A DNA stretch of 35,140 nt from Pseudomonadota bacterium (lineage in GTDB: Bacteria > Bdellovibrionota_B > Oligoflexia > Oligoflexales > RGVZ01). This document shows positions 9,924-20,815 of this stretch, in pieces. Made by a program: the position numbers and the translations under genes. Under the pieces are notes generated by a model, which saw only the letters and a program-made list of their open reading frames with translations, did no database searches and was not told the origin of the DNA. The number at the start of each line of letters is the position of its first letter. Within the stretch, counting starts at the first letter, position 1. Location: contig JAPLFV010000206.1 in the NCBI GenBank assembly GCA_026390495.1, positions 1 to 35,140 on the forward strand, in the 5' to 3' direction.

Positions 9924-12900
9924 ATGAAACTTAAGTTTTTAAACCAAACTACAAACACTCTTCAATGGTCCCGCCCAGCCATTAATTTGTTAGCTATCTT
10001 CGTTACGATCCTTCAGGTTAGTGGATGCAGCCTGTTTACCGTCAAATCAAAAGCTCGACTACCGGGTACTACCGACTGTCCAGCTTCATCCACAAGCCTA
10101 CAATGCCTAGCAAAGAAGAAAACGATTTCTTCCGAAAATTTTTCCGTAACATCTTTGGACCAAGTTGTTCGTTCTGCGGATACCATGACGATAGATTTAA
10201 AATTACCAGAAATGCTGAGTGGCGAAACTTACGAAACATTTTTATCGTTTGCAAGCGACGGGGAAACATTTGGAACTGAATCAAAAGTCACTGTGTCTGG
10301 AACAACTGTTTCTTGGACAGCTCCAACGAATACCTCAACTGCAAAAGGAAAAGTTAAAATTCGCCTCAAAACCTCCCTAGGTCGCGAAGCAAGTGCGATT
10401 TCAAAATCAATCAATGTCATCAATCAATACACCCGACTTGCAGGCCGCCCATCGTTAACGTTTTATTCAAATCCAGGCAAAGGTTCTAAATTCTTTGCAA
10501 CGGCGATTCATGGAATGACCGACGATGGAACTTATCTCTACCTCGGCGATTGGCGTATGATATGGCGCGTCAAACTCACCACAAATGTTGCTGAAAGACT
10601 CGTTGGCGTACCTGGTAGTGGTGGATCCGTTGATGGCTCTCGATCGACCGCAAGATTGTCTCGGCCCTTTGATATGAAAATCCTTGGTGGAGTGTTGTAT
10701 TTTATCGATGATGTGGATTGCGTTTTACGGAGTGTCATCATTAACGAATCAAGCGCAGATTTTGGAAAAGTGACGACTGTCGCAGGGACTTCTGGATCAT
10801 GCACCCACACAGACGCTGTTGGGGCTTCGGCAGGTTTTAAAAATCCGTACTCGATGACAACTGACGGCACGGACTTATTTATTGTTGATGCAGGGTCCTA
10901 TACGGTCCGTCGAGTCGAAGTCTCTAACTTCAATGTAACGACGATTGCAGGAATACCAAATACTGCAGACTCAGCAACTGCAACCGCTGATGCGACCACT
11001 GTCGGTAGCTTGGCGAAATTCGCGTTACCTCTTTCCCTTGTTTATGCCAATGGATATCTCTATGTCTATGACTCAACAACCGCTGTCATTCGAAAAATCA
11101 GTACAACTGACGGTTTCTATACGACGTCACCATTTTTTGGCGTCACAAATTTCCTGGGAAGCAATGATGGTGGTAGCACCGTAGGAAAATTGCCAACGGG
11201 AGGCAAAATCGCCACAGATGGAACAAAAATTTACTTTTCAACGACCTACAACGAATCAATTAGGGCTATAACGATCTCTACAGCAACTTCAACGACACTT
11301 GCAGGGCAGATCGGCAAAGCTGGTTATTCCAATGGCGCTGGTCTTTTTCAGGCTAGCTTTGGTTTAATTACGAGTATGCATGCTGTGGGAAACCGACTCT
11401 TTGTTGCTGACCGACACAACTCATCCATTCGCGAAGTGAACACCATCACCGGCGATGTTTCCACGCCACTAGGTTCTGCATCGAATGAATCATTCATTTC
11501 GAAAGGATCTCCCGTAAACGATGCTGCAACCTTACAATTGTCCCGCGGAATAACTAGCGCAGATGGAAACAAAATTTATGTTTCTGATCACCACAATATG
11601 GTCATTCGCATGATAGACGTAGCGGCCAACACCGTCACGACAATTGCTGGCTCTCCGGGAATTGCAGGATATACCAACGGATTTGGCGCTTCAGCAAAAT
11701 TCTCTCGCCCATTTGGCATGGTCGTAGTTGGGAATTTTCTTTATGTTGCTGATGGAGACAACAACGTCATACGAAAGGTCGATTTAACGACATACCAGGT
11801 ATCTACATTTGCGGGAGCTGCTGATGGAAGTTCAGGATCTACTGACAACGCTGATCCAACTGTCGTAAGATTTTATGCGCCTTACGGAATCACGACTGAT
11901 GGCACTTACTTATATGTTGCAGATACATCTAACAACCGAATTCGAAAGGTCACAATTGCCACAGGTGAAACAACGACTTTAGCAGGGTCTGGCGCAAATG
12001 GGAGCGCTGACCTAATTGGCATTGCTGCCACATTTCGAAGTCCTCGCGCCATCACGATAACTCCCTCAGGAACAGATTTATATATAGGAGATACGACAAA
12101 CCAACTTATTCGAAAAATCGTCATTGCAACTGGTCAAGTGACCACAGTAGCAGGACTCGCCACCGCAGCTGGAGATGCAATTTCAACAACTCCAGATGAC
12201 GGAACATCTGCTCGGTTCAATCAGCCATATGCAGTCCTGGCAGACGCCGACTATGTCTATATTGCGGACACTAACAACAGCAAAATCAAGAAAATGAGTA
12301 TTGCAACGACGAAGGTATCCCTACTTGCTGGTGGAAGTGCCTACAGCACACAGAGTTCGAGTCAATCAAAAGGCGACAATGCAAGTATACTAGCAGTAAA
12401 CGGACTAGCATTTAGTTCTCCATCTGGAGGAGCGGAAAAAGAACTCTTTGCATCGTCACATGGAGTGCCATTTGTTTTTAGAGTTGGAGTCACAACGGGG
12501 CAAGTTAACATTGCCGCAGGAAACATTGTATCGCATCATTTAGATCACCGAGGTTCAACCGACGGACTTGCCAAATCCCAAACAAAAAGCTTTCAATCTG
12601 TTGCTATGGCAAATGGGTATCTTTATTCCATGGATCCATTTGCTTTCTGTTTGTATCGGATGAAACCAGATGGGTCAGATATTACAATTGTTGCTGGCAA
12701 ACACGGAGATTCTGGTTCGGTTGATGGCGTAGGAACTTCAGCCCGTTTGGGCCAAAGCTTTGGAATGGTTTCTGATGGAACCTATCTATACTGGACAGAA
12801 AACGACAATGCAACGGTTCGACGATTCACAATTAGCGACAGTACGGTGACCACCATTGCGGGTACGGCTGCAGTGCGAGGAAACACCGATGCGACTGGAT

Positions 12901-13499
12901 CAAGTGCTAGCTTTAAACGTCCAGGGCGGCTGAGTTTAGCCAACAAAAAACTCTACATCGCAGATGAAACATCCCATCTCATTCGTACTGTGTCGATTGA
13001 CACTAGCGACTACGGCAAAGTCACAACACTCGCTGGGACTGCAGACACCTTGGGCTCCACAGACGGTGCAGCACTCACTGCAACCTTTTATAAACCAACA
13101 TGTACCTATGCAACAACCACTGAAGTCTATGTGTGTGACTATACAAACAATCGCATCAGAAAAATTGATCTAGCAACAAACGTTGTATCGACCGTGATTG
13201 GTAACAGCAACCCCGGAAGATTTTTGGAAGGTACCGGAACATCAGCAGAAATCATTCAACCCGTAGCGATGACCACTGATGGAAAATACTATTACGTCAT
13301 TACTGAAACCGGTCAGGTTGGAAGGATAAATCCAAGTGACAACTCACTTAAACTTTTCGCAGGTGATACTATGTACTCCGCAGATTCGGATCTGAGCTTA
13401 TCGATCAAGGACTCCATCCCTCAATTTAAAGACATATTGTTTGATGCCACCTACGGCTTCTTTGTGACTACGGCTGCTGGATTTGGAATCATTAAGTAG
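9924..13499 (+). CDS. Giant NHL-repeat lipoprotein
   Basis: 1191-residue predicted lipoprotein. The signal peptide ends in the lipobox VSGC (Cys about 35). An Ig-like/all-beta segment (about 75-150) precedes a long array of beta-propeller blades of about 50-65 residues. I count roughly 16, each carrying a variant of [TI]-[TV]-[IVL]-AG followed by a short Gly/Ser/Asp insert and ending in YVADxxNxxIRKV. The blades match NHL repeats, which form six-bladed protein-binding propellers, so this chain could make two or three propellers. Likely on the outer membrane or cell surface and involved in binding; the ligand is unknown. The Shine-Dalgarno AGGAG is rather far from the ATG (12 nt). It is convergent with the aminotransferase gene, with only 25 bp between stops. 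Confidence 0.88.
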   Translation: MKLKFLNQTTNTLQWSRPAINLLAIFVTILQVSGCSLFTVKSKARLPGTTDCPASSTSLQCLAKKKTISSENFSVTSLDQVVRSADTMTIDLKLPEMLSGETYETFLSFASDGETFGTESKVTVSGTTVSWTAPTNTSTAKGKVKIRLKTSLGREASAISKSINVINQYTRLAGRPSLTFYSNPGKGSKFFATAIHGMTDDGTYLYLGDWRMIWRVKLTTNVAERLVGVPGSGGSVDGSRSTARLSRPFDMKILGGVLYFIDDVDCVLRSVIINESSADFGKVTTVAGTSGSCTHTDAVGASAGFKNPYSMTTDGTDLFIVDAGSYTVRRVEVSNFNVTTIAGIPNTADSATATADATTVGSLAKFALPLSLVYANGYLYVYDSTTAVIRKISTTDGFYTTSPFFGVTNFLGSNDGGSTVGKLPTGGKIATDGTKIYFSTTYNESIRAITISTATSTTLAGQIGKAGYSNGAGLFQASFGLITSMHAVGNRLFVADRHNSSIREVNTITGDVSTPLGSASNESFISKGSPVNDAATLQLSRGITSADGNKIYVSDHHNMVIRMIDVAANTVTTIAGSPGIAGYTNGFGASAKFSRPFGMVVVGNFLYVADGDNNVIRKVDLTTYQVSTFAGAADGSSGSTDNADPTVVRFYAPYGITTDGTYLYVADTSNNRIRKVTIATGETTTLAGSGANGSADLIGIAATFRSPRAITITPSGTDLYIGDTTNQLIRKIVIATGQVTTVAGLATAAGDAISTTPDDGTSARFNQPYAVLADADYVYIADTNNSKIKKMSIATTKVSLLAGGSAYSTQSSSQSKGDNASILAVNGLAFSSPSGGAEKELFASSHGVPFVFRVGVTTGQVNIAAGNIVSHHLDHRGSTDGLAKSQTKSFQSVAMANGYLYSMDPFAFCLYRMKPDGSDITIVAGKHGDSGSVDGVGTSARLGQSFGMVSDGTYLYWTENDNATVRRFTISDSTVTTIAGTAAVRGNTDATGSSASFKRPGRLSLANKKLYIADETSHLIRTVSIDTSDYGKVTTLAGTADTLGSTDGAALTATFYKPTCTYATTTEVYVCDYTNNRIRKIDLATNVVSTVIGNSNPGRFLEGTGTSAEIIQPVAMTTDGKYYYVITETGQVGRINPSDNSLKLFAGDTMYSADSDLSLSIKDSIPQFKDILFDATYGFFVTTAAGFGIIK

Positions 13500-19120: not shown

Positions 19121-19603
19121 TCACTTCAAGTCTTTCATTTGATCACTAAGAGATGGCTGAGCTAGTGAACCCTTCGACTCTATTGTGACTGGTTTTTTGG
19201 CTTCCTGCAATGTTGATGAAAAACCTTTAGCATAGGCAGTTTTTACCTGCTGAGCATTAAATCTCTGCGAAGGGCCCAATTTTACACCCATACTTTCCAA
19301 GAGTTGCCTTTCAACCATATCCGCAAGTCCCATCGCTTTTTGATTTGCCATGGATTTGGCATATTCGGCATCAAGCATGGAGGTGTAGATCTCTTCCGCG
19401 TTGCCCCCATCAATTAAACCACTCTTCTGTACACTTGATCGCATCCCCTTAAGCATTTGCTCAACGAACATACTCTCAAAGTCACTTGACAGCTTTTTGA
19501 TCTTATCGAGATCTTTCGCAGATTTTCCCTGTTTTTCCAATTGCGCAACAGTATCGTTAGCCAAAGCTCCCGTTGCTGCACTCATGATTCCTTTAATGTC
19601 CAT
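19121..19603 (-). CDS. flgJ: FlgJ-type rod-binding protein (no muramidase domain)
   Basis: 160 residues corresponding to the N-terminal rod-cap domain of FlgJ only. Signature DFESMFVEQMLKGMRSSV (about 41-58), then GGNAEEIYTSMLDAEYAKSMANQ and GLADMVERQL. The C-terminal glucosaminidase domain found in enteric FlgJ is absent. This is common outside gammaproteobacteria and means a separate peptidoglycan hydrolase must open the wall for rod growth. The Shine-Dalgarno AGGTGAG precedes the ATG. It is separated from flgI by a 129-bp inverted repeat and may therefore have its own transcription start. Confidence 0.93.
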   Translation of the reverse strand: MDIKGIMSAATGALANDTVAQLEKQGKSAKDLDKIKKLSSDFESMFVEQMLKGMRSSVQKSGLIDGGNAEEIYTSMLDAEYAKSMANQKAMGLADMVERQLLESMGVKLGPSQRFNAQQVKTAYAKGFSSTLQEAKKPVTIESKGSLAQPSLSDQMKDLK

Positions 19604-19647
19604 AAATACTCACCTGTCTTTCATCTTCACTTACAACTCTCTTACAG

Positions 19648-19776
19648 TGTAGATTCTGTCGAAAATGGGTAAGTTCCAGGAGCAAGGAGAAAAAAAAGCG
19701 GAGTGTATGATACATACTCGAGCATTTTTTTTCGACGAAGTGACGCCGAAATTACCCGTTTTCGACAGAATCTACA
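19648..19776. repeat. 129-bp imperfect inverted repeat with bidirectional terminator core
   Basis: The outer 25-bp arms at 19648-19672 and 19752-19776 match at 24 of 25 positions when one is reverse-complemented. The arm reads TGTAGATTCTGTCG, then AAAA(T/C)GGGTAA. The core is eight A's (19690-19697), an imperfect GAGTGTATGATACATACTC hairpin, and eight T's (19725-19732): an intrinsic terminator on both strands. The right arm contains the flgI stop codon. The structure sits in the middle of the flagellar operon. It could be a small palindromic mobile or REP-like element or an attenuator. No second copy is seen in the window. Confidence 0.85.
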
Positions 19777-20815
19777 TGAATTTTAGGTCGGCTTGCAGTG
19801 CCCCGGCCGCTTGTATAGCCTGCATCACTCCAACTAGATCTGCAGGCTTCATACCCATCGCATTCATTGATTCAATCAACTTGCTAACCGTAGATCCCCC
19901 CATATTGACCACAGTCTTGCCCCCTTTATCTTTGCCACCTCCGCCCTTTCCACTACCAACAGAGATAGACAAGTCTCCATGAGAAATTGTTACTGGAGCG
20001 ACGATGACATCTCCACCCATGACGACAGTGCCCGTTCTTTCATTGATGACAACGACACTTTTTTGATCCGCAACGACTTTCACATTTTCAAGCTCAGAAA
20101 TAAACTCAACCGTCTTGCCGTCGTAGTGTGGAGGAATGTCGATATCAATTCCGTGGACGTCAACAGATTTAGCATAGAAACCACGCATATGTTTATTGAC
20201 AGCTGCAACAATGCGGTTGTTGGTCGTGAAGTCAGGATTTTTTAAACTTAAAGTAATGCGACCGTCCCCTTCAATATCAGGTGCAAACTCCCTCTCAATA
20301 ACGACAGACCCTGGCGCCACGGCCACTGTTTGAACCTGAGTCCCAGCACCATTTGCTTGACCTATCACCACAGGCCCTGACGCGAAACCGTAAACGTTAC
20401 CGTCTCCGCCTTTCAGCGGGGTGGATACCAAAACTCCACCTGATAAGCTTTTGGCGTCACCTAAAATAGCTACTCGAGAATCAATTCGATCGCCATTACG
20501 ACTAAAGGCTGGCATTTCTGCAGTGACAAGCACAATCGCAGACGATCCACTTGCAATCTCTTGCTCAGTAACTTTTGAACCAAGCTTTGTCATGAGTCCA
20601 GAGGCAAGCCGATTCGTTGAGATGGATTTTGCGCTGTCACCAGACTTATTAAGACCAATGATAAGGCCAACGCCGATAATTTGATTCGTGCGCACACCTC
20701 GAATGTTCACTAAGTCCTTCAATCGAGTTTCCTGCGCTTTGGCAGCAACAGAAGCAAAAACCATAATCGCGGAGGCAACAAACACAACAAACCAATCAAT
20801 AATTTTAGTCATCAT
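19772..20815 (-). CDS. flgI: Flagellar P-ring protein FlgI
   Basis: Periplasmic protein that forms the peptidoglycan-level bushing around the rod. Sec signal peptide (about 1-28, cleaved near AKAQE) followed by the family start RLKDLVNIRGVRTNQIIGVGLIIGLNKSGDS. The conserved stretch QTVAVAPGSVVIEREFAPD and the C-terminal PADLVGVMQAIQAAGALQADL are also present. 347 residues, normal. A Gly/Lys-rich insert (GKGGGGKDKGGK) sits before the C-terminal helix. Its start (ATGATG) overlaps the flgH stop by 4 bp. Its stop lies inside the arm of the long inverted repeat. Confidence 0.96.
   Translation of the reverse strand: MMTKIIDWFVVFVASAIMVFASVAAKAQETRLKDLVNIRGVRTNQIIGVGLIIGLNKSGDSAKSISTNRLASGLMTKLGSKVTEQEIASGSSAIVLVTAEMPAFSRNGDRIDSRVAILGDAKSLSGGVLVSTPLKGGDGNVYGFASGPVVIGQANGAGTQVQTVAVAPGSVVIEREFAPDIEGDGRITLSLKNPDFTTNNRIVAAVNKHMRGFYAKSVDVHGIDIDIPPHYDGKTVEFISELENVKVVADQKSVVVINERTGTVVMGGDVIVAPVTISHGDLSISVGSGKGGGGKDKGGKTVVNMGGSTVSKLIESMNAMGMKPADLVGVMQAIQAAGALQADLKFM

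Follow-up and report, generated by a model that had tools for sequence, protein, structure and literature searches.

A probable MITE-like insertion at the flgI stop codon of an Oligoflexales genome and its family of palindromes with a conserved core and unrelated arms

Bacterial MITEs, such as QMITE2 of Coxiella (PMC10969869) and MITEPsy1 (PMC3189936), are short, gene-less elements with terminal inverted repeats, target duplications and many copies. REP sequences (PMC3733652, PMC2817692) are palindromes of 20-40 bp and are not defined by 8-bp target duplications. SPRITE repeats of Streptococcus pneumoniae (PMC3049150) are dispersed repeats that resemble a Rho-independent terminator, they combine an 18-bp duplex with a U-rich tract and end in AAAA/TTTT, and target duplication has not been demonstrated for them. 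Rickettsia palindromic elements, as presented in the part of PMC10969869 that cites Ogata et al., are palindromes that lie in frame in unrelated genes. Here we compare with these systems a palindrome found between the flagellar genes flgI and flgJ.

The palindrome lies in a 35,140-nucleotide stretch of contig JAPLFV010000206.1 (assembly GCA_026390495.1, order Oligoflexales), the whole of which is called the window below. The original prediction of a palindrome between flgI and flgJ that has an A8-hairpin-T8 core and includes the flgI stop codon in one arm is borne out: the arms are 29 nt each, 93% complementary and separated by 71 nt; A8 (19690-19697) and T8 (19725-19732) flank a short hairpin; and the stop codon TAG (19772-19774) is inside one arm. 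Read in the flgI direction, on the minus strand from 19776 to 19648, the element is TGTAGATTCTGTCGAAAACGGGTAATTTC...GAACTTACCCATTTTCGACAGAATCTACA. The features of the locus, each with its basis in brackets, are:

19772 to 20815, minus strand: flgI, intact to its usual C-terminus, ...FM* (ORF and congener comparison)
19772 to 19779, minus strand: 8-bp flank TCATGTAG on the flgI side, containing the flgI stop TAG and fitting the right half of CTAnnTAG (flank comparison)
19748 to 19776, minus strand: 5' arm in the flgI direction, holding the flgI stop codon (inverted-repeat search)
19690 to 19732, minus strand: A8-hairpin-T8, terminator-like on both strands, with a weak stem (sequence and fold)
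19695 to 19727, minus strand: 33-nt conserved core, an exact match to AAATGCTC-N3-TA-N7-TA-N-ACTSCGYTTT (pattern match)
19648 to 19676, minus strand: 3' arm in the flgI direction (inverted-repeat search)
19645 to 19652, minus strand: 8-bp flank CTACACTG on the flgJ side, fitting the left half of CTAnnTAG (flank comparison)
19648 to 19776, minus strand: whole palindromic element, a type A copy of 129 bp (limits of the extended inverted repeat)
19653 to 19771, minus strand: 119-bp unit ATTCTG...CAGAAT, without the TAG/CTA of the target-like flanks (edge set from the perfect 8-bp CTAnnTAG duplications of sister copies)
19121 to 19603, minus strand: flgJ, starting 45 bp downstream of the element (ORF and congener comparison)

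The fold of the whole element stands well apart from that of shuffled sequences (minus strand, z = -8.3; plus strand, z = -9.5), and none of the 200 shuffles folded equally well. At 119-129 bp, and without a long ORF of its own, the element contains no transposase gene, and no Rfam family was matched in the window. Elsewhere in the window, positions 9924-13499 encode a lipoprotein-like ORF of 1191 aa, in which numerous repeated motifs resemble NHL/beta-propeller units.

Comparison with relatives, which had been proposed as a check, reveals an empty site and an unchanged end of FlgI. In five genomes of the same genus a plain spacer of 19-81 bp, free of any palindrome, separates flgI from flgJ, and all five FlgI proteins terminate in ...FM* at that same residue; thus, the insertion is specific to this lineage and sits exactly on the flgI stop codon, without truncation of FlgI. 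The palindrome is absent from this position in all 12 relatives examined (five of the genus, four of the family and three others of the order), in each of which flgI and flgJ lie close together or overlap. The stop codon TAG may have come with the element or may be native, belonging to a CTAnnTAG target. Around the window copy itself no target duplication is recognizable, the flanks agreeing at only 2 of 8 positions, so that a duplication has decayed or never existed.

A genome-wide search, likewise suggested beforehand, established that the element is multi-copy: DNA searches with type A and the other subtypes yielded, after merging, at least 49 distinct dispersed copies in the 4.45-Mb genome. 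The 33-nt core pattern has 33 matches at up to one mismatch and 39 at up to three, against none for a reversed-pattern control. This core is near-invariant and its spacing constant, and the arms belong to at least four unrelated types, each of them palindromic:

Arm type A (that of the window copy): ATTCTGCTGAAAAAGGGTGATTTC
Arm type B: CTGTTGAATTTTGCCAA
Arm type C: GCCAGTTTAAAAACCCCGA
Arm type D: AGCTTGTTCGGAGTTAGCTGACTC

Arms of the same copy pair better with each other than with arms swapped in from other copies of the same type (p=0.0002 for type D, 0.002 for B and 0.018 for A), and the window copy itself departs from the consensus of type A on both sides (CTGCTG/CAGCAG to CTGTCG/CGACAG). 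Either hairpin-based correction of the arms against each other or selection on pairing may account for this complementarity. In the congener G035, one copy combines A-like arms with a D core.

Rearranged copies were also observed. Eight copies of types A, B and C (L157, L174, L158, L159, L116, L126, L207, L217) contain a secondary hairpin insert resembling CCCCAGCTNCNAGTCTCGCTGGGGACCCCTGC; in most of them it takes the place of the 3' half of the core hairpin, and in two it lies elsewhere. Directly downstream of the type A copies L178 and L150 are near-identical hairpins, TCGCTGGCGCGAAACGCCGGCGACT and TCGCTGGCGCGAAACGCCAGCGACT. Locus L273 (G000 C104:11860-11915) is a type D palindrome of 56 bp from which the core has been lost. 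L222 (G000 C121:10761-10898) has a type B copy immediately adjoining what remains of a type A arm; thus, elements of different types insert next to each other. Solitary arms with neither core nor partner arm, perhaps the products of palindrome deletion, are of type A at L204:4180, L220:821 and L221:1535, and of type D in G035 (L260, L263, L265, L266, L268, L270).

Target duplications are found in sister copies. Perfect 8-bp duplications flank the type A copies L142, L178 and L150 (CTATGTAG, CTAAATAG and CTAACTAG, respectively), and intact copies of types A and D share an 8-bp duplication of a CTAnnTAG target. The type D copies of G035, 118 bp in length, have the same CTAnnTAG pattern, one of them with an 8/8 duplication; the single measured copy in genome G037 is 121 bp. 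In types A, B and D, a copy's own flanks match each other better than swapped flanks do (best of 125 frames, p unadjusted).

With its terminal inverted repeats, small size, lack of a transposase gene, dispersed copies and empty site in relatives, to which sister copies of types A and D add the target duplication, the palindrome is very probably a non-autonomous MITE-like element whose insertion here is lineage-specific, and it represents type A of a family of several types. The suggestion that a small palindromic, MITE-like element had inserted at the 3' end of flgI is thus upheld by the copy number, the five empty congener sites and the family-wide duplications, and what looks like an operon terminator is recast as a lineage-specific insertion. 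The element would have been moved in trans by a transposase of an IS5/ISNCY-like group, or by an unseen sister with type A ends; it would have landed on the flgI stop codon with the FlgI protein unchanged, and its position between genes would have made the insertion tolerable.

Candidates for the mobilizer occur in congeners. Transposase genes were located with an approximate query (the last 19 residues guessed) and assigned to a family by separate searches: that of G041, related to that of G035, scores weakly against IS5 and ISNCY models, falling far short of the NCBIfam cut-offs, and neither Pfam nor NCBIfam returned anything for the 26-aa start of the G035 transposase. The G035 IS ends TAGTGCTAGTTCGGCATT and TAGTGCGAGTTCGGCGTT are at or near contig breaks, one such end adjoins a type D end, the two meeting at CTACCTAG, and the left end of the G041 IS is CTACC followed by TAGGGCACGTTCGCCATT. 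Both the ends (TAGTGCTAGTTCGGCATT, TAGGGCACGTTCGCCATT) and the CTAnnTAG target of these insertion sequences resemble those of type D, but their ends, unlike the palindrome family, come without the 33-nt core. On this sequence resemblance, an IS with type-D-like ends is a possible mobilizer. The same approximate query found no such transposase gene start in the genome that carries the element, although that assembly is split into 431 contigs. Type A arms turned up in isolation and not as the ends of any IS, and near the three solitary ones (L204, L220, L221) there was neither a partner end nor a transposase. The ends of type B (GGNNCTGTTGAA) may resemble those of the IS6 family.

Type D copies also occur inside genes. 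Their 118 bp plus the 8-bp duplication make 126 bp, equal to 42 codons, and both strands are often open in that frame. One lies in frame within a homologue of DNA polymerase III alpha, next to the PHP match, and others at the N-termini of SelO, MnmE and a xanthine-dehydrogenase-type protein; the MnmE proteins of relatives, retrieved with the MnmE of the element's genome minus the insert as query, start without it. The same polymerase gene of G035 holds an independent in-frame copy, oppositely oriented and displaced by some tens of residues, and each of the two genomes displays the other's empty site. In-frame type D copies, within long ORFs or at their ends, were noted at L219 (G000 C234), L208, L212, L213, L206, L215, L209 and L054, and at L187 in G035. 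An example of the predicted inserted peptide is ...VNEHFSATSNAESANSEQAL.

Beyond the genus, the core is rare in its own phylum, being present in four of 58 genomes, three of them of the same genus. With other arms, it occurs in Pseudomonas (P. veronii, P. aeruginosa and P. amygdali plasmids), in Halomonas, Candidatus Fukatsuia and Haliscomenobacter (Bacteroidota), and also on several IMG/VR contigs. An exact 16-mer gave 43 matches in IMG/VR, mostly coding coincidences, with a true core only in L081. Core searches found nothing in Escherichia coli genomes or phages, full type A, B and D elements had no full-length BLAST match in phages or plasmids, and searches of the literature with the element sequence strings returned nothing relevant.

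The best-surviving alternative to a MITE recognized by its ends is a mobile palindrome recognized by its conserved hairpin core, extruded as a cruciform, whose arms need only be self-complementary. It would account for a core kept from Oligoflexales to Pseudomonas and Bacteroidota among unrelated arms, for the better pairing of same-copy arms and for the G035 copy with A-like arms and a D core. However, the ends of type D match ordinary, core-less IS ends, as those of a normal MITE would, and hairpin-templated correction could maintain arm complementarity without any role in transposition; we regard recognition of the core as unlikely.

Slightly less likely still is a transcriptional attenuator or terminator selected at this site, parting the rod/ring genes from flgJ-M-N-K-L-csrA-fliW. 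It draws on the A8-hairpin-T8 arrangement present on both strands, the very stable overall fold and the A and T tracts, which are longest in type A copies (medians of 8 and 8, as compared with 5 and 4.5 in type D). The description of the core as a full terminator overstates it: in an intrinsic terminator a stable G+C-rich stem leads straight into a U-tract, and here the T8 is present but the inner hairpin is weak (-4.8 kcal/mol in the flgI direction, -7.9 kcal/mol on the other strand) and was not reported by a scan for consensus terminators, and so a full terminator is not established. As a conserved device of the operon, the proposed attenuator is unsupported because the relatives are without the element; moreover, the same sequence is present at about 48 other places beside unrelated genes. 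Intergenic copies lie in 16 tandem, eight convergent and six divergent gaps, which tracks the local baseline. The tract lengths would fit retention of terminator-like tracts by intergenic copies and not by gene-embedded ones, but are only suggestive. For a MITE-like insertion, either the A8-hairpin-T8 core or, once transcribed into RNA, the 29-bp palindrome might conceivably lower transcription from flgI into flgJ, flgM, flgN, flgK, flgL, csrA and fliW; judged from the sequence, a polar or attenuating effect on flgJ to fliW expression in this strain is possible.

A REP/REPIN-type repeat mobilized by a RAYT (tyrosine) transposase, the REP-like nature entertained in the original prediction, would suit dispersed and mostly extragenic palindromes but is most improbable, the elements being 119-129 bp long instead of 20-40 bp and the family having 8-bp target duplications, by which REPs are not defined.

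The MITE-like family departs from the described systems in several respects. In MITEs derived from a single IS by deletion the pattern is the opposite of the one seen here, where it is the middle that stays the same from phylum to phylum and the ends that vary, and the ends of MITEPsy1, as printed in PMC3189936, are unlike every arm type. A family with a conserved middle and changing ends, the reverse of ordinary MITEs, may tentatively be regarded as one part of a cross-phylum superfamily of mobile palindromes defined by the hairpin core, in which arms are replaced or rewritten yet remain self-complementary and from which, in one branch, a protein-coding insert has arisen outside the Rickettsiales. 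If so, either recognition of a cruciform or hairpin or repeated capture by different transposases would be indicated. In contrast to SPRITE repeats, the elements are long-armed and show duplications of 8 bp, and their bidirectional core is weak. R178 of Pseudomonas fluorescens (PMC2718517), an intergenic repeat of 101 bp that contains an inverted repeat of 11 bp, is likened to them by description and is a lead only. Type D likewise resembles Rickettsia palindromic elements by description, with no homology claimed, in being palindromic and in frame in unrelated genes; the host here is not a Rickettsia, and the gene-embedded branch would be a case of this kind far from that genus. The flgI copy differs in this respect, since the 119 + 8 = 127 bp of type A are not in frame and lie at a stop codon.
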